Positions 3,452-55,060 of a stretch of 64,000 bases of DNA are shown here, piece after piece. A program made the position numbers and the translations under genes. Positions within the stretch are counted from its first letter, which is position 1; every line of letters starts with the position of its first letter. This DNA comes from Comamonas badia DSM 17552 (lineage in GTDB: Bacteria > Pseudomonadota > Gammaproteobacteria > Burkholderiales > Burkholderiaceae_C), in NCBI RefSeq assembly GCF_000484635.1, contig NZ_AXVM01000004.1:62001-126000 (forward strand). Reading direction: 5' to 3'. The notes under the pieces were generated by a model. The model ran no database searches, was not told the DNA's origin, and was given only the letters and a program-made list of their open reading frames with translations.

Positions 3452-4164
3452 CGCGCGCCAGCAGCAAGACCAAAGCACAGCCCGCGCGGCCAGGCCCGCT
3501 GGGCGGCATGCGCCATCTATTTCTGCGCGATGTACGTATTGCCTTGCGCCGCCAATCGGACTCCGCCGCGGCCATCGTGTTTTTCTTCATCGTCGTCAGC
3601 CTCTTCCCGCTGGGAGTGGGCGCCGAGCCGCAACTGCTGCGCGCCATGGCGCCAGGCGTGATATGGGTCGCCGCCTTGCTGGCCGCGATGCTGTCCTTGC
3701 CACGGATGTTCAACGATGACTTGCAGGATGGCACGCTCGAACAACTCCTGCTGGCGGCAACTCCGCTGCCGCTGCTCGTCGGGGCAAAAATGGCGGCCCA
3801 CTGGCTCAGTTCAGGCCTGTTGCTGGCACTGCTGTCCCCTCTGCTGGCACTGCAATTCGACCTTCCATCCGACGCCACGAGCGTCCTTCTGGCTTCCTTG
3901 CTGTTGGGCACCCCAACATTGAGTCTGATCGGCGCCATCATGTCCGCGCTGACGCTGGGCGCGCGCGGCAGCGGCGTCCTGCTGTCCTTGCTGGTGCTTC
4001 CGCTGTACATCCCCGTACTGGTGTTCGGTGCCGCATCCGTGCATGCGAGCGCCTCGGGCCTGGGCGTTTCGGCGCATTTTTCATTACTGGGCGCCATCCT
4101 TGTGCTGGCCCTGTTTCTCAGTCCCTGGGCAACAGCCTGGGCTCTGCGAATCTCGGTGGAATGA
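3448..4164 (+). CDS. ccmB: CcmB, heme exporter membrane subunit
   Basis: 238-residue integral membrane protein with about six hydrophobic segments and the conserved stretch F-N-D-D-L-Q-D-G-T-L-E-Q-L-L after the second one, typical of CcmB. It pairs with CcmA. The ATG at 3448 overlaps the ccmA stop (ATGA), so translation is coupled. The N-terminal ~20 residues are basic and low-complexity. ccmC, D and E are not in the window. Confidence 0.93.
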   Translation: MTRASSKTKAQPARPGPLGGMRHLFLRDVRIALRRQSDSAAAIVFFFIVVSLFPLGVGAEPQLLRAMAPGVIWVAALLAAMLSLPRMFNDDLQDGTLEQLLLAATPLPLLVGAKMAAHWLSSGLLLALLSPLLALQFDLPSDATSVLLASLLLGTPTLSLIGAIMSALTLGARGSGVLLSLLVLPLYIPVLVFGAASVHASASGLGVSAHFSLLGAILVLALFLSPWATAWALRISVE

Positions 4165-4174
4165 TGGTTCCACC
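4155..4174. terminator. Hairpin between convergent ccmB and the MocR gene
   Basis: A perfect 7-bp stem, GGTGGAA/TTCCACC, with a 6-base loop spans the ccmB stop codon and lies just before the convergent gene's stop at 4181. There is no strong T-run on either side, so it could be a weak bidirectional terminator or an mRNA 3'-end stabiliser. Confidence 0.4.
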
Positions 4175-4180
4175 TGCCTT

Positions 4181-5680
4181 TCACGCTATCGCTGCGGACG
4201 CACAGCCTGATTCGGCGGATAACTGCCACAGCCGAAGCAGAGCTTCGCTGATTTCGGTTTCCGTCAAGGCTGCATAACCCAGCAGAACGACGCGCTGCAA
4301 GGCGTCATCGCGGTCCGCTGGCTCCAACGTCAAGGCGTTGCCGGTATCAATGCCGTAGATACCCACGCCACAAGCGTGGGCTCGCGCCTCCATCGCGCGT
4401 GCATGCAATCCGCCCGGCGGCAGGTGCGCGACAACATGCATGCCACCACTGCGGCCATCGACCTGCCACTGCGGCAAGAAATGTGCCAATGCGGTGCACA
4501 GGTGGTTGCGTCGCGCGGCATACGCGTGCCGCATGCGGCGAAGATGTTCAGCGTAACCACCTTCCGCAATGAAGGTGGCAAGCGCTGCCTGTTCCAGCCA
4601 GGGCTGGCAGTTGTTGAGCAGCGCCTTCGCGTGGCAGACCGGCGCAACCATATCCACAGGCAGCACCATGTAGCCAATGCGCAACCCAGCGCCCAGACTC
4701 TTGGAGAACGTGCCCAGATAAATGACCTGATCGTTGCGATCAAGGCTTTTGAGCGCCGGCAGTGGCGTGCCATCGTAGAAAAAATCGCTGTCGTAATCGT
4801 CTTCAACCACTGTTGCTCCGGTGTCACCGGCCCACGCCAGCAGCGCCTGGCGCCTTGGCAACGACAGCGTGCTGCCCAACGGGTATTGGTGTGACGGTGT
4901 CGTGTATACCAGTGCCACCTCCCTTGGCAATTTCGCCGGATCCAGGCCATGCTGGTCAACCGGCACCGGCAGCAAGCGCGCGCCGTGATTGATGAAGACA
5001 TTGGCTGCGCCTCGGTAGCACGGATTTTCCACAGCCACGCGAGCACCAGGTTCGAGAAGCACGCAAGCAAGCAGATTCAAACCCTCCTGAATGCCATTGG
5101 TAATCACAATTCGATCGGCAGTGGTGGCAATCCCTCGCGTTGCTCCCACATGCAGCGCAATCGCTTCACGCAGCGCCAGCAAGCCCTGTGGGTCGCCATA
5201 TTCGCACAGGCCGCGCGCATCCTCACGCAACATGCGCTGCAGCAACGACTGCCATGACCGCATGGGAAACAGCCGTGCGTCAGGCCGCCCCACCCAGAAA
5301 TCAAAGCTGACAGCGGATGTATGCAGTCGCGTTACCCGGTGCGAATCTTCTCGCTGCCGCAAGCTGCGGCGCTGCGCACCCAGGGAACAATGGTGCCCAT
5401 GCGCAAGTGGCAAGACTGCAGGCCCTTCCCGCACGACGCCTTCGGTCACGAAGGTACCCAGGGGTTCGCGCGTCTCAATCAGGCCTTCCGCCACCAGGCG
5501 CGCATACGCGGCCACCACCGTATTGCGCGAAACTTTCAAGTCTGCCGCCAGTTCGCGGCTGGCAGGCATTCGGGCGCCCGGCGCCAGCCGGCCGTCAAGG
5601 ATCAGATCACGAATCTGCCCTGCGATCGCTCCCTGAAGCCGGGTGGTGCCGGCATCATCCAGCCGTATCGGCAGTTGCAT
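4181..5680 (-). CDS. MocR/PdxR-family transcriptional regulator (GntR-HTH plus aminotransferase domain)
   Basis: 499 residues. An N-terminal winged-helix GntR domain (residues ~10-80; S-R-E-L-A-A-D-L-K-V-S-R-N-T-V) is fused by a linker to a class I aminotransferase-fold domain. The latter has the PLP-lysine context F-S-K-S-L-G-A-G-L-R-I-G-Y and the D-Y-D-S-D motif. Members usually sense PLP and an amine and control pyridoxal, GABA or taurine genes. No obvious target gene adjoins it: ccmB converges and dacA lies upstream on the same strand. The effector cannot be told from sequence. Confidence 0.88.
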   Translation of the reverse strand: MQLPIRLDDAGTTRLQGAIAGQIRDLILDGRLAPGARMPASRELAADLKVSRNTVVAAYARLVAEGLIETREPLGTFVTEGVVREGPAVLPLAHGHHCSLGAQRRSLRQREDSHRVTRLHTSAVSFDFWVGRPDARLFPMRSWQSLLQRMLREDARGLCEYGDPQGLLALREAIALHVGATRGIATTADRIVITNGIQEGLNLLACVLLEPGARVAVENPCYRGAANVFINHGARLLPVPVDQHGLDPAKLPREVALVYTTPSHQYPLGSTLSLPRRQALLAWAGDTGATVVEDDYDSDFFYDGTPLPALKSLDRNDQVIYLGTFSKSLGAGLRIGYMVLPVDMVAPVCHAKALLNNCQPWLEQAALATFIAEGGYAEHLRRMRHAYAARRNHLCTALAHFLPQWQVDGRSGGMHVVAHLPPGGLHARAMEARAHACGVGIYGIDTGNALTLEPADRDDALQRVVLLGYAALTETEISEALLRLWQLSAESGCASAAIA

Positions 5681-14352: not shown

Positions 14353-14486
14353 AGGGGAAACTCCAGTATCGGGAAACGGCGTGCACGCCTGCCCGGGCAA
14401 GCCGTGCAGACGCTGGTGAGCCTGTGATTGTATGCGGCGACTCGGACCCGGCTTTGGCGTGCGTCAGGCGCGTGCAGCCCTATTTA

Positions 14487-14560
14487 AAAAAATGGACCAA
14501 ATAGGCTGTTTGCACTTACCCAGTAACCGCTATGCGCTCCTGTTTTTGATTTTTTTGTTC
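14487..14560. repeat. Diverged copy of the palindromic repeat spanning the ior stop codon
   Basis: On the plus strand CCAAATAGGC, GCACTT, CGCTA and a TTTTTGAT end occur in the same order and spacing as the reverse complement of the repeat at 39131-39192. The element provides the last ~12 codons and stop of the ior gene. The match is by eye and the middle is diverged. Confidence 0.45.
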
Positions 14561-38505: not shown

Positions 38506-39131
38506 TCCATGTGATTCTGTGCGACGACCACGCCATCCTGCGCCGCGGCATCCGCGACACCCTTGCCGAGGCGCCGGATATTGAGGTGACCGGCGAGGCG
38601 GGCAGCTATACGGAGCTGAGGGAGCTGCTGCGCCACGCGACCTGCGAAGTGCTGCTGCTGGACCTCAATCTGCCGGGGCGCAGCGGCATGGAAGTGCTCG
38701 CCAGCCTGCACGAGAGCCATCCACAGATCAAGGTGCTGATCGTTTCGATGTACCCCGAAGACCAATACGCACTGCGCGCCATCAGGGCGGGGGCCCATGG
38801 CTACGCCAACAAGGCGAGCGACCCGCTGCTGCTGATCCAGGCCGTGCGCACCGTGGTACAGGGGCGCAAATACCTCACGCCCGAAGTCGCGCAACTGCTC
38901 GCCGACAGTCTGTCGCAGCCCGAACGCGAACTGCCCCATGAGCAGCTCTCAGAGCGCGAAATGCAGACGCTGGTGAAGATTGCATCGGGCAAGCGCCTGT
39001 CGGACATCGCGCAGGAACTGGTGCTCAGTCCCAAAACCGTGAGTGTTTACCGCGCGCGGGTGCTGGACAAGCTGCACCTGAGCAACAACGCCGAACTCAC
39101 GGTCTACGCCATCCGCAACAAATTGGTATGA
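38502..39131 (+). CDS. LuxR/NarL-type response regulator
   Basis: 209 residues: receiver (C-D-D-H-A, phosphoacceptor in L-L-D-L-N-L-P, Lys in N-K-A-S) and LuxR-type HTH (L-S-E-R-E-M-Q-T-L-V-K-I-A-S-G, K-T-V-S-V-Y-R-A-R-V-L). It pairs with the preceding kinase through an ATGA overlap. Its place between the che and fli operons suggests a motility or surface-behaviour target, but that is inferred from position only. Its stop codon abuts a palindromic repeat. Confidence 0.92.
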   Translation: MIHVILCDDHAILRRGIRDTLAEAPDIEVTGEAGSYTELRELLRHATCEVLLLDLNLPGRSGMEVLASLHESHPQIKVLIVSMYPEDQYALRAIRAGAHGYANKASDPLLLIQAVRTVVQGRKYLTPEVAQLLADSLSQPERELPHEQLSEREMQTLVKIASGKRLSDIAQELVLSPKTVSVYRARVLDKLHLSNNAELTVYAIRNKLV

Positions 39132-39192
39132 AAACAATAGCATTTGGCGCTTCACACAAAAGCGTCAGAGGCATATTTGGCTGTATTTTCAG
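39131..39192. repeat. Comamonadaceae-type palindromic repeat filling a convergent gap
   Basis: Sequence runs AAAACAATAGC, then GGCGCTT and AAGCGTC as hairpin arms, then AGAGGCATATTTGGCT. I know this layout (AAAATTGATAGCTGCTAGCGCTT...AAGCGCTAGAGGCCAA) as a common intergenic repeat in Comamonadaceae genomes. Here it fills the whole 57-base gap between the response regulator and fliR and includes the last base of one stop codon and all of the other. It may act as a bidirectional terminator. Confidence 0.75.
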
Positions 39193-39956
39193 TACACACC
39201 AAACAGGTCTATCGCCTGCTGCAGCAAGGTAAACAGCGGCTGTTCCAGCATGGGCAGCGTCGCGGTGATGCCCAGCAGCCCGACGGTGATCGTGACCGGA
39301 AAACCGACGGCGTAGATATTGGTCTGCGGCGCCACGCGCGAGATGATGCCCATGGTGAGATTGACGAACAGCAGCAGCGCCACCAGCGGCAGAGCGATCC
39401 ACAGCGCGCTGGAAAAAATGCCCGCGCCCAGATCCTGCAGCCGCAGCTGCGCCACCGCCTGCATCAGATCGCCATCGACCGGGAAGGCCTTGAAACTTTG
39501 GACCACGGCCATGAGCACCATCAAGTGGCCGTTGACCACGATGAACAGCAGCAGTGCAAGGTTGCTGTAGAAGCTGGTGAGCGCGCCGCGCTGCGAATTG
39601 CTGGCAGGATCGAAAAAAGAGGCGTAATTGAGCCCCATCTGCAGGCCGATGACTTCGCCCGCCAGCTCGATGGCGACAAACACCAGCCGGACGGCAAAGC
39701 CCATGCACAGGCCGACACCCACCTGCTGCACGATCGCACCCCAGGCGGCACTTGAATTGACCGCAACCACCGGCTGATCGGGCAGTGCGGCCTGCGCACA
39801 GACGGCCACGAGAAACGCCAGCGCCACCTTCAGGCGCACGGGAATGGCGCGCATCGAAAAAATGGGCGCGGCGGTGAACATCGCCAGTACACGCAGAAAC
39901 GGCCAAAGCACCGGCGAAAGCCAGGCCATGAGCTGTGCTTCGTTGAAGGTGAGCAC
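39189..39956 (-). CDS. fliR: FliR, flagellar export gate protein
   Basis: 255-residue membrane protein of the type III export gate, with about six helices and the conserved stretch A-I-P-V-R-L-K-V-A-L and G-E-V-I-G-L-Q-M-G-L-N-Y-A. It forms the gate with FliP and FliQ. It is the last gene of the fliF-R operon and starts nine bases after fliQ. Confidence 0.96.
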   Translation of the reverse strand: MLTFNEAQLMAWLSPVLWPFLRVLAMFTAAPIFSMRAIPVRLKVALAFLVAVCAQAALPDQPVVAVNSSAAWGAIVQQVGVGLCMGFAVRLVFVAIELAGEVIGLQMGLNYASFFDPASNSQRGALTSFYSNLALLLFIVVNGHLMVLMAVVQSFKAFPVDGDLMQAVAQLRLQDLGAGIFSSALWIALPLVALLLFVNLTMGIISRVAPQTNIYAVGFPVTITVGLLGITATLPMLEQPLFTLLQQAIDLFGVY

Positions 39957-52873: not shown

Positions 52874-55060
52874 TCACAGCGCCGCCATCGCATCCCGCAG
52901 TTCACGCACCCCGAGCAACTCGCTGAACACCACCGGCTTCCTGCCCGGCGCGTACAGCACATACAGCGGCACGCCACTGCGCCCCAACGAGGCCAGCGAG
53001 GCGGTGATGGCCGGATCGCGCCGCGTCCAGTCCGCCAGCAGCAGCGCCACCTTTTTATCCGCGAAATCCTGGCGCACGCCGGTGTTCGCCAGCGTGGTTT
53101 TCTTGTTGACCTGGCAGGTCACGCACCAGGCGGCGGTGTAGTCGACAAACACCGGCTGCCCCTGGGCCAGCAACTCGGCCGGCAGCTCGGCGCGCCACGG
53201 CTGCCAGCCGCCCGCCTGCGCAGACTGCGCTGTGGCAGGTGCCTGCAATTCAATGATTTTTGGGCCCCAGGCGCTTACCAGCCATGCGCAAGCAGCTATC
53301 GATAGAGAAGCAAATACGGTGCGTGTACGGCCACGCAGCGTGAACGCCCAGACCACCAGCGCCAGCATTACCAGCAGCACCAGCAGCGCACCCGCGCCAT
53401 CGATGCCGCTTTGCTGGCCCAGCACCCAGACCAGCCACGCCACGGTGGCAAACATGGGAAAGGCCAGCAGTTGCCGCAGCGTCTGCATCCAGGCACCGGG
53501 TCTCGGCAGCAAGCCTGCGACGGCCGGCCACCAGCTCGCCAGCAGATAGGGCGCCGCCAGGCCCAGCCCCAGCGCTGCAAAGATCGCCAGCGCCTGCACC
53601 GCCGGCAGCGACAGCGTGAGACCGAGGGATGCACCCATGAACGGCGCGGTGCAGGGCGAGGCCACCGCCACCGTCAGCACGCCAGTGAGAAAGGCATCGG
53701 TCACCGGATTTTTGGCCTGCGCCGCCGCCCAGCGCGAGGGCAGCAGCATGCCCACCTCGAACAGTCCCGCCAGGTTCAGGCCGATCAGCGTGAACAGCAC
53801 GGCCAGCAGCGCCACCACCAGCGGCGATTGCAGCTGAAAGCCCCAGCCCACGGCTTCGCCCGCCGTGCGCAGCATGAGCATCAGCGCACCCAGCGCCAGG
53901 AAGGAGAGCACCACGCCCGCGGTGTAAGCCAGCCCACCCACGCGCTGCGCACGCAAATCACCCGCATGCCGGGCAAAGCCGACGACCTTCACCGCCAGGA
54001 TCGGGAACACGCAGGGCATGAGGTTGAGCAGCACGCCGCCCACCAAGGCTCCGGCCAGCGCCACCAGCCAGGCCGCGAGCGGTGCGCTGCTGGGGACCGG
54101 GGCCGGCGCCGCCATGGCAGCCGCCGCGGACGCCGCATCCTGCGAAAAACCCAGCTGGGTGGGCAGTGCCTTCATCGGCGGCCACTCGCCCGCCACCGGC
54201 AGCTGCACCCGCCAGCCCGTGCCGCCCTGGGCCAGCACCAGTCCCATGGCTTCGGGGCTGGCGGCCCGCTCGGGCGAGATCGGCACGCGCGCCGTCCAGG
54301 TGGCGCCCTCCCACTGCTGCACCGGTTCCTTGGCGTTGTCCACCACCTCGGGCGTTTCAGGGAAGACGTCGAGCTGCTTGCCCTGCCATGCCTGCGGCAG
54401 ATGCTGCACGCGCAGCACCAGCGCATCGTTGTCCACCTGCGCGTCGCTGTCCTGGGCGGTCATGTCGCCCGGATACGCCCGTGCGGCTGCGGCAAAAGCC
54501 GCCGCGTTGAACGCCGTCGTGCCCGCCAGCGGCACCTGCAGCGTGAAGCTGCCCTCTTCCGGCACGCACTCCATGCGGCACACCAGCCAGGCGGCCTGCA
54601 GTTGAAAAGTGGCTTGCGTCTCGCCAGGCGCCGGCTGGAACATGCTGGAAACCGTCACCGGCACCGGCAGCAGCACCTGACCCTCATAACCATAGTTGGC
54701 CAACGGCCCTATCGGGATCTTGCGCGGCAGCGGCCAGGCGATTTCGCCCGCGTCCAGCCCCGCCGGCAGCTGCCATTGCAATTGCGTCGGCAGGCCCGAG
54801 TCACCCGGGTTGAGCCAATAGGTATGCCACTCGGGCTGGTGCGTGAGCAGCAGGCCCAGCGTGAGCGGCTTGCCCGGCGCCACTCCCTCCGGGGCCTGCG
54901 CCACCAGCTCGGCCCGCACATGGTCGGTCGTGACCACGCTGCTGGCAGCAGGCGTACCTGTTTTTTTGAGCTGAAATTGGGCATTTGCGCCCGTGCACAG
55001 GGCGCCAGCAGCTATCAAAAAAAGAAACTGGCGAAAGAATGAGGGCAATCGGTCAAACAT
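52874..55060 (-). CDS. dsbD: DsbD/ScsB-type thiol:disulfide interchange protein
   Basis: 728 residues: signal peptide (cut near A-N-A-Q), an N-terminal periplasmic domain with C-R-M-E-C-V-P, eight membrane helices with N-L-M-P-C-V-F-P and A-S-P-C-T-A-P-F, and a C-terminal thioredoxin domain with W-C-V-T-C. It passes electrons from cytoplasmic thioredoxin to periplasmic partners such as CcmG or copper-handling proteins. The layout and the C-x-x-x-C N-domain suit the ScsB-like branch. Two copies of the palindromic repeat lie in the coding sequence. Confidence 0.9.
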   Translation of the reverse strand: MFDRLPSFFRQFLFLIAAGALCTGANAQFQLKKTGTPAASSVVTTDHVRAELVAQAPEGVAPGKPLTLGLLLTHQPEWHTYWLNPGDSGLPTQLQWQLPAGLDAGEIAWPLPRKIPIGPLANYGYEGQVLLPVPVTVSSMFQPAPGETQATFQLQAAWLVCRMECVPEEGSFTLQVPLAGTTAFNAAAFAAAARAYPGDMTAQDSDAQVDNDALVLRVQHLPQAWQGKQLDVFPETPEVVDNAKEPVQQWEGATWTARVPISPERAASPEAMGLVLAQGGTGWRVQLPVAGEWPPMKALPTQLGFSQDAASAAAAMAAPAPVPSSAPLAAWLVALAGALVGGVLLNLMPCVFPILAVKVVGFARHAGDLRAQRVGGLAYTAGVVLSFLALGALMLMLRTAGEAVGWGFQLQSPLVVALLAVLFTLIGLNLAGLFEVGMLLPSRWAAAQAKNPVTDAFLTGVLTVAVASPCTAPFMGASLGLTLSLPAVQALAIFAALGLGLAAPYLLASWWPAVAGLLPRPGAWMQTLRQLLAFPMFATVAWLVWVLGQQSGIDGAGALLVLLVMLALVVWAFTLRGRTRTVFASLSIAACAWLVSAWGPKIIELQAPATAQSAQAGGWQPWRAELPAELLAQGQPVFVDYTAAWCVTCQVNKKTTLANTGVRQDFADKKVALLLADWTRRDPAITASLASLGRSGVPLYVLYAPGRKPVVFSELLGVRELRDAMAAL
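53247..53310. repeat. Palindromic repeat copy inside dsbD (membrane segment)
   Basis: On the coding (minus) strand: GATAGCTGCTTGCGC, then AAGCGCCTGG, then GGGCCCAAAAATCA, in the same order and spacing as the repeat at 54961-55024 and 39131-39192. It encodes S-I-A-A-C-A-W-L-V-S-A-W-G-P-K-I-I-E-L, the last membrane helix and the start of the linker to the thioredoxin domain. The frame stays open through it. Confidence 0.75.
54961..55024. repeat. Palindromic repeat copy inside dsbD (signal peptide)
   Basis: On the coding strand: TTTTTTTGATAGCTGCTGG, arms GGCGCCC and GGGCGCA around a short loop, then GCCCAATTTCAGCTC and an A-run. It is one of the best matches to the family repeat. It encodes L-I-A-A-G-A-L-C-T-G-A-N-A-Q-F-Q-L-K-K, that is the hydrophobic core and cleavage site of the signal peptide. 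Confidence 0.8.

Follow-up and report, generated by a model that had tools for sequence, protein, structure and literature searches.

Copies of a ~60-bp hairpin repeat are translated within dsbD and other conserved genes, with little apparent change of length at structured sites

Results

Two repeat copies lie within dsbD

The window, which is the whole 64-kb stretch of DNA analysed, lies on contig 4 of a 3.68-Mb genome (G000) and carries on its minus strand a dsbD gene that hosts two copies of a palindromic repeat. The features are listed below with their scores in a covariance model (R1) and a PWM.

52874..55060, minus strand: dsbD, 728 aa, host of both copies; Pfam DsbD_N 61-175, DsbD_TM 332-544, Thioredoxin_7 620-705
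54960..55020, minus strand: repeat copy 1 in dsbD, residues 14-34 FLIAAGALCTGANAQFQLKKT; R1 44.2 bits, E=1.4e-10; PWM 35.2
54999..55012, minus strand: copy 1, 5' hairpin arm (model columns 9-22; structure supplied to R1)
54981..54993, minus strand: copy 1, 3' hairpin arm (model columns 28-40; structure supplied to R1)
53244..53304, minus strand: repeat copy 2 in dsbD, residues 586-606; R1 38.5 bits, E=9.7e-9; PWM 36.9
53283..53296, minus strand: copy 2, 5' hairpin arm (model columns 9-22; structure supplied to R1)
53265..53277, minus strand: copy 2, 3' hairpin arm (model columns 28-40; structure supplied to R1)
39132..39192, plus strand: intergenic copy; R1 35.1 bits, E=1.2e-7; PWM 48.0
14485..14545, minus strand: weak copy-like stretch, possibly a decayed fourth copy; PWM 22.8, without an R1 match at E<=1

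The two dsbD copies and the intergenic copy are each 61 bp long, with a GC content of 0.41-0.51. The intergenic copy is placed between convergent ORFs, the plus-strand one ending at 39131 and the minus-strand one spanning 39189-39956. A first-pass annotation had called the element at 39131-39192 purely intergenic, which is nearly so, except that its final four bases lie within the end of the minus-strand ORF. Part of the weak stretch (14516-14545) overlaps the end of a same-strand ORF of 1328 codons.

Within DsbD, site 1 (residues 14-34) reads like a signal-peptide core and cleavage-like region, with an A-N-A↓Q motif that we take to resemble a signal-peptidase cleavage site. Site 2 (residues 586-606) is predicted to be a hydrophobic segment and linker preceding the thioredoxin-like domain (Pfam 620-705). 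The first-pass view that the repeat is in frame and hydrophobic in both places thus holds, with a signal-peptide-like core at site 1 and a hydrophobic segment plus linker at site 2.

The dsbD stretches belong to a hairpin repeat family

The first-pass annotation had proposed counting the core pattern genome-wide and comparing the dsbD matches with shuffled sequence. The genome contains the core, ATAGCTNNTNGCGC, 62 times and the same pattern read backwards 9 times. Around the core sites the flanks have in common ~60 bp of consensus sequence, marked by two GCGC-type arms, AGCC at one end and a tail rich in A/T. From 49 copies of the same genome we trained R1, leaving out the copies in dsbD, LolA and GspD and including other coding copies; genome-wide it scored at least 150 copies, all at E<=0.0074. 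Within the window, R1 at E<=1 matches three sites only, namely the two dsbD copies and the intergenic one. The PWM was built from 80 copies, recognised coding copies excluded, and holds ~58 bits across 61 columns; in its alignment the repeat consensus begins AATTGATAGCTGCTAGCGC. In five windows shuffled in two-base blocks, PWM maxima were all below 0 (scan prefiltered on six columns), far under the 35.2 and 36.9 of the dsbD sites. A search of the window with Rfam at gathering thresholds returned no match besides one tRNA.

It is extremely improbable that protein sequence and codon usage alone yield the resemblance. When DsbD codons were redrawn 100,000 times from the codon usage of the window, dsbD excluded, one recoding reached the PWM score of site 1, and both segments are compatible with the protein; but none of the 100,000 reached the score of site 2, and R1 matches both sites without having been trained on them. 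Moreover, the site 1 isoleucine is encoded by ATA in 40/44 DsbDs and that of site 2 in 21/36, as against 50/1762 for the other isoleucines of the same proteins. Chance resemblance was rejected on the R1 matches and the recoding test. Both dsbD stretches are confirmed as members of a ~60-bp hairpin repeat family, a few bases from where the first-pass annotation had put them.

Covariation in the family supports the hairpin. Across 47 copies found without the core pattern, 80.4% of the cells of the stem-loop are paired, and the covariation score was reached by 1 of 500 shuffles; 29 cells had changed on both sides, compared with 19.1 +/- 3.2, a count reached in 0 of 500 shuffles, and slid versions of the pairing scored lower. 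In the copies found by the core pattern (set A3) covariation is weak (44 of 500 shuffles reach the score); in this set the pattern itself fixes part of the arms.

At L018/L019 (G000:C2:110316-110395) and at L020, two cores lie head to head ~80 bp apart and combine into a single long palindrome whose interior differs, which would be a composite or variant of the element.

The repeat is mostly intergenic and translated in preferred frames

Placement was classified for 109 of the at least 150 copies scored, comprising the 62 core-pattern copies and the 47 best model matches outside that set. A strict two-flank coding test was passed by 14 of them (13/62 and 1/47), and three further coding copies, all in signal peptides, were added by eye. 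Neighbours on both sides could be assigned for 59 of 82 non-coding copies. Co-directional genes flank 45 of these (24 and 21 by orientation), convergent genes 10 and divergent genes 4. The repeat is therefore mostly intergenic among the copies examined, with a minority inside genes. Both orientations of the core occur along the contigs, which speaks against a role as a strand-skew or segregation signal.

Hosts named by Pfam are DsbD, LolA, GspD (N0 domain), T2SS protein F (GspF), RsmB/F (two genes), TruB, KdtA, a FemAB-like protein (L007) and a class I synthetase-type protein (L198, GluQ-like); L009 we take, from a reading of its sequence, to be ParC. In dsbD, lolA and gspD the repeat site is common to several genera. 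The repeat-bearing N-termini of LolA and GspD, like that of DsbD, read like signal peptides. Hence the first-pass picture of a repeat that is mostly found between genes yet translated in frame extends beyond the two copies in DsbD to LolA, GspD, a segment of GspF and soluble proteins. Two RsmB-family paralogues (L025 and L037) carry the repeat in the same protein region, about six bases out of mutual register.

For each of five of the six reading frames, 34-40 of 80 non-coding copies are open. Strict coding copies in minus orientation use frame f0 in 9/10 cases (P=0.0004 at 1/3), and those in plus orientation use f2 in 4/4, or in 7/7 with the three by-eye signal peptides (P=0.008 at 1/2), which had been noticed through that very frame. 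Plus f2, which reads LIAACA, is the most hydrophobic frame (mean Kyte-Doolittle 0.67), and five of its seven copies form signal peptides (DsbD, LolA, GspD) or hydrophobic segments (DsbD site 2, GspF), with a few loops besides; minus f0 (...QAQAAIK) serves soluble proteins. We read this frame preference as a protein-fit filter.

The repeat is confined to one family among sampled genomes

R1 was run at E<=1e-6 on 40 genomes, 24 of them from the family of the source organism (f1) and 16 from other families. The repeat is present in 17, all within f1, and none of the 16 genomes from other families had any match; within the sampled genomes it is thus confined to one bacterial family, that of Comamonas and Acidovorax relatives. 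The nine genomes of the genus, G000 included, hold 9 to 134 copies each. Among twelve other f1 genera sampled, copy numbers reach at least 136 in two and 131 in one, range from 4 to 45 in five and are 0 in the others. No match to the Y1/RAYT-type transposase (Pfam PF01797) was found in the own genome, compared with matches in 5 of 14 control genomes.

In a tree built from RsmB, RsmB-like and TruB sequences with the element columns masked, G009 (0 copies) branches outermost, followed by G010 (28), then G011 (45) with G003 (9), a grouping whose support is only 0.437, and then the remaining genus (77-134). Since G009 lies outside the repeat-bearing genomes and holds 0 copies, TruB and RsmB appear to have gained the motif without a change in length. 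G003, of the same genus, has 9 copies at E<=1e-6 and shows GC-rich codons at the RsmB, RsmB-like and TruB sites, again without a length change, as if its copies had eroded in place or had never been gained.

Copies at structured sites do not add the length of the repeat

The first-pass annotation had suggested that insertion of the repeat created the two DsbD segments. A mobile palindromic repeat, similar to the RPEs, might have inserted in frame, with later trimming or a compensating deletion at sites sensitive to length. Such insertion would suit a hairpin family of many copies, some translated in frame, and has RPEs as its precedent (PMC3767692, partial text).

The DsbD encoded here is 77% identical to DsbDs of Comamonas MAGs, and at 80 DsbD loci R1 (E<=1) found the repeat at site 1 in 29 and at site 2 in 12. 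Site 2 shows 0 gaps among 81 aligned DsbDs, whether the repeat DNA is present or absent, and is ungapped against the repeat-less G009 and G010. A search for DsbD in 12 further genomes gave five matches, of which G013 alone is from another family; its DsbD differs by a few residues near site 2. At site 1, repeat-less signal-peptide-like N-termini of similar length occur in G003, G009, G010, Ramlibacter and Variovorax, a comparison that leans on uncertain N-termini. About seven extra residues follow the cleavage-like site in the own DsbD and are absent from the repeat-bearing L148 and L155. Because repeat-less homologues have the same DsbD segments without a 20-residue gap, insertion does not appear to explain the dsbD copies. 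The alignments suggest instead that the repeat replaced existing dsbD codons rather than adding pieces of protein.

For other hosts, length differences were taken as own protein minus element-less homologue across the element plus 25 flanking residues at each end. RsmB differs by 0 from G003, G009 and G010 and by -1 to -3 from four other families, and it aligns without gaps across the element to an archaeal structure (2yxl). The RsmB-like paralogue differs by 0 from 6/6 element-less homologues; TruB by 0 from G003, G009 and G014, by -1 from G012 and by +3 or +4 from four others; and GspF by 0 from G018, the sole homologue without a trace of the element. In these four hosts the protein is at most four residues longer, and a 20-residue insertion is absent from the structured sites as a whole, both dsbD sites included. 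Relatives that have the protein segment and lack repeat-like DNA, the kind of evidence that the first-pass annotation had named against its own claim, were found at dsbD, RsmB, its paralogue, TruB and GspF.

Loops behave differently. With the 25-residue flanks counted, which gives larger differences than the element alone for KdtA, ParC, L053 and L198, the KdtA loop is longer than in seven element-less homologues (+14 against G003, +8 against G009, +5 to +18 against five other families), ParC is longer by 8 than in G009 and G010, L053 by 20 than in G015, its single outgroup, and L198 by 2 than in G003 and by 21 than in G013. L007 ranges from -2 to +12 against eight element-less homologues. Five loops thus appear longer, two of them by about the length of the repeat against a single outgroup each, so the repeat may have lengthened loops. 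For the signal-peptide hosts, where local matches may lack the N-terminus, LolA differs by 0 (G003), +2 (G013) and +8 (G015), and GspD by +6 (G011), +13 (G018) and -11 (G009). In all, five sites are neutral in length or almost so, and LolA and both dsbD sites are placed with the neutral ones.

The general first-pass claim, that repeat insertion makes new protein segments, consequently fails at dsbD, RsmB, the RsmB paralogue, TruB and GspF and could hold in loops such as those of L053, L198, KdtA and ParC, which are the cases that speak for in-frame insertion. As an account of the family we consider in-frame insertion rather unlikely. Differences are ~0 at DsbD site 2, RsmB, RsmB-like and GspF, and at TruB against its nearest element-less relatives; each length-neutral site would require an exactly compensating deletion; and the genome lacks a Y1/RAYT-type transposase. 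No empty site was seen, and 19 intergenic comparisons with G002 and G008 included no presence/absence difference with a clean gap.

Coding copies diverge along the columns of the motif

Divergence was measured in eight coding copies against genus relatives (2 to 7 each, G003 excluded). Whichever of the three codon positions is considered, it tracks the diversity of the same columns among non-coding copies (pooled rho 0.40, p=3e-15, a value that is indicative only because columns are not independent between copies). The link is significant in 5/8 genes and not in RsmB-like (p=0.31), GspF (0.094) or LolA (0.39). Third-position divergence is 0.202 in conserved motif columns compared with 0.439 in variable columns and 0.324 in flanks; the corresponding first-position values are 0.072, 0.369 and 0.124. 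Across the element as a whole, third positions average 0.335, no different from the flanks. Divergence within genes is thus shown to follow the columns of the motif. Between genes, 16 of the 19 orthologous comparisons in G002 and G008 keep the copy (PWM >=47) though the arms change, and in several the changes in the two arms are matched by eye; the remaining three score 29, 37 and -44, the last (L030 in G008) in a poor alignment.

Inside DsbD, a test on codon identity only found no excess at the two sites, with 257 and 308 of 709 windows equally high. Once rare codons were weighted, their sharing was highest in windows at both sites in sets of 26 and 12 DsbDs, which had been chosen by their repeat matches; in the unselected 81 DsbDs the peak persists at site 1 (the top windows begin at residues 1-5) and not at site 2 (rank 144/709).

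Constraint of this kind might also arise if the repeat were a recognised DNA signal, like the uptake sequences, whose coding copies had formed by point mutation at look-alike codons and were kept by selection or biased uptake. Gain in place, preferred frames, the use of both orientations and conservation along motif columns all accord with such a drive, as do the element-less RsmBs of two other families (G018 and G016), in which the exact register of the element ranks 1/669 and 2/666 within the gene. We nevertheless hold it to be unlikely: ~58 bits over 61 columns exceeds the need of a recognition signal, the window has just 3 matches per 64 kb, lengthened loops do not fit, and no pre-similarity is seen at two other RsmBs (160/669 and 200/690) nor at RsmB-like, TruB and GspF of other families. 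Pre-similarity as the general cause of target choice was rejected, as it was seen at RsmB alone; its presence there and not elsewhere fits each explanation only in part.

Discussion

We consider it probable that the ~60-bp repeat stands in place of resident codons at structured sites, goes with often longer proteins in loops, by up to about its own length, and then stays under motif-specific constraint. In the writing step another copy would serve as partner for recombination or as template, and the resident codons might or might not be lost; ectopic recombination or annealing of a single-stranded copy could bring this about. Against such copying, neither a donor copy nor a conversion tract was identified. 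Protein fit would decide which outcomes survive, including whether added length persists. The continuing constraint may reflect an activity at the level of DNA or hairpin, or repeated re-copying.

A bolder form of this proposal, which we think improbable, is that the repeat is a self-spreading, family-specific DNA signal that overwrites codons by copying, persists as DNA in conserved genes and steers protein sequence, in the manner of an uptake sequence or driven by conversion. Uptake sequences are described as arising by recombination opposite unrelated sequence (PMC2397512, partial text), and in Neisseria the DUS measures 10-12 bp, occurs in almost 1,500 copies and shows an intragenic bias (PMC2346458, partial text). 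The hairpin repeat is like the DUS/USS of Neisseriaceae and Pasteurellaceae in occupying both orientations, inside and outside genes. It is unlike them in its size (61 columns, 58 bits) and in its far fewer copies, with 3 matches in 64 kb and at least 150 scored genome-wide.

Coding repeats, including ones that form signal peptides, are already known. ERIC/RU elements are MITE-like repeats that have terminal inverted repeats and a TA target duplication. RU-1/ERIC and RU-2 copies in enterobacterial ORFs form predicted signal peptides or transmembrane segments and are described as fusions, the homologues of the bearing proteins having unrelated signal sequences (PMC2759123, partial text). The repeat described here likewise forms part of signal peptides or hydrophobic segments; unlike those fusions, its hosts dsbD, lolA and gspD are conserved genes and its site is common across genera. 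RPEs, too, are palindromic and translated in frame within conserved genes, where orthologues share the site, and are described as insertions (PMC3767692, partial text). The present repeat is similarly translated in frame inside known genes, but its copies in dsbD, RsmB, TruB and GspF appear not to add the length of the repeat, as some loop copies may.

REPs, in the available part of one account (PMC3733652), carry a GTAG or CGTC tag at one end; GTAG REPs have a RAYT transposase, CGTC REPs are said to be without a dedicated one, and intragenic REPs are reported, many of them in replication and repair genes. Like REPs, the repeat is a short stem-loop with more than 100 copies, mainly between genes; unlike them, it is ~60 bp long, has an A/T-rich tail and repeated in-frame use, and its consensus lacks the GTAG/CGTC tag. 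Identity with the REP/RAYT system was rejected on the absence of PF01797 from the genome.

The BRE is a Beta-proteobacterial repeat of Comamonadaceae among others, ~90 bp long with 69% GC in Bordetella and with some copies in coding sequence (PMC3110155, partial text). Our repeat resembles it in having Comamonadaceae-type hosts and some copies within coding sequences, and differs, by description only, in the length and GC content of the window copies. A second, GC-rich repeat of ~100 bp lies at the left flank of L046 (query 4125-4225) and has dozens of matches in G002 and G008. Peptides resembling its translation (SPHPNPPP-GEGR-like, by eye) occur inside ORFs at L015, L023, L026, L035, L045 and L187 and often adjoin the 60-bp hairpin repeat. 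This second repeat is possibly the published BRE.

In the literature searched, which largely excludes subscription papers, we found no description of the ~60-bp element itself, nor of any hairpin repeat of this sort that replaces codons without altering length and remains constrained as a motif. The available text of PMC12306157 (RepRanger) makes no mention of Acidovorax, Comamonas or Burkholderiales, and that of PMC3733652 none of Acidovorax, Comamonas, Delftia or Polaromonas.

A repeat within a gene is commonly taken for an insertion that has added protein. Several coding copies here occupy the place of resident codons and add no length, and their later evolution follows the rules of the repeat as well as those of codons. 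If the replacement of resident codons is confirmed, DNA-level processes shape the conserved proteins RsmB, TruB, LolA and DsbD, and synonymous sites in repeat-bearing genes are not neutral. Length-neutral structured sites, set against lengthened loops, could then serve to separate recombination, drive and transposition in a well-sampled family. Should the self-spreading form be true, the repeat would be such an element outside the two groups in which signals of this kind are known, and a hairpin signal would influence the residues used by signal peptides, hydrophobic segments and soluble helices.
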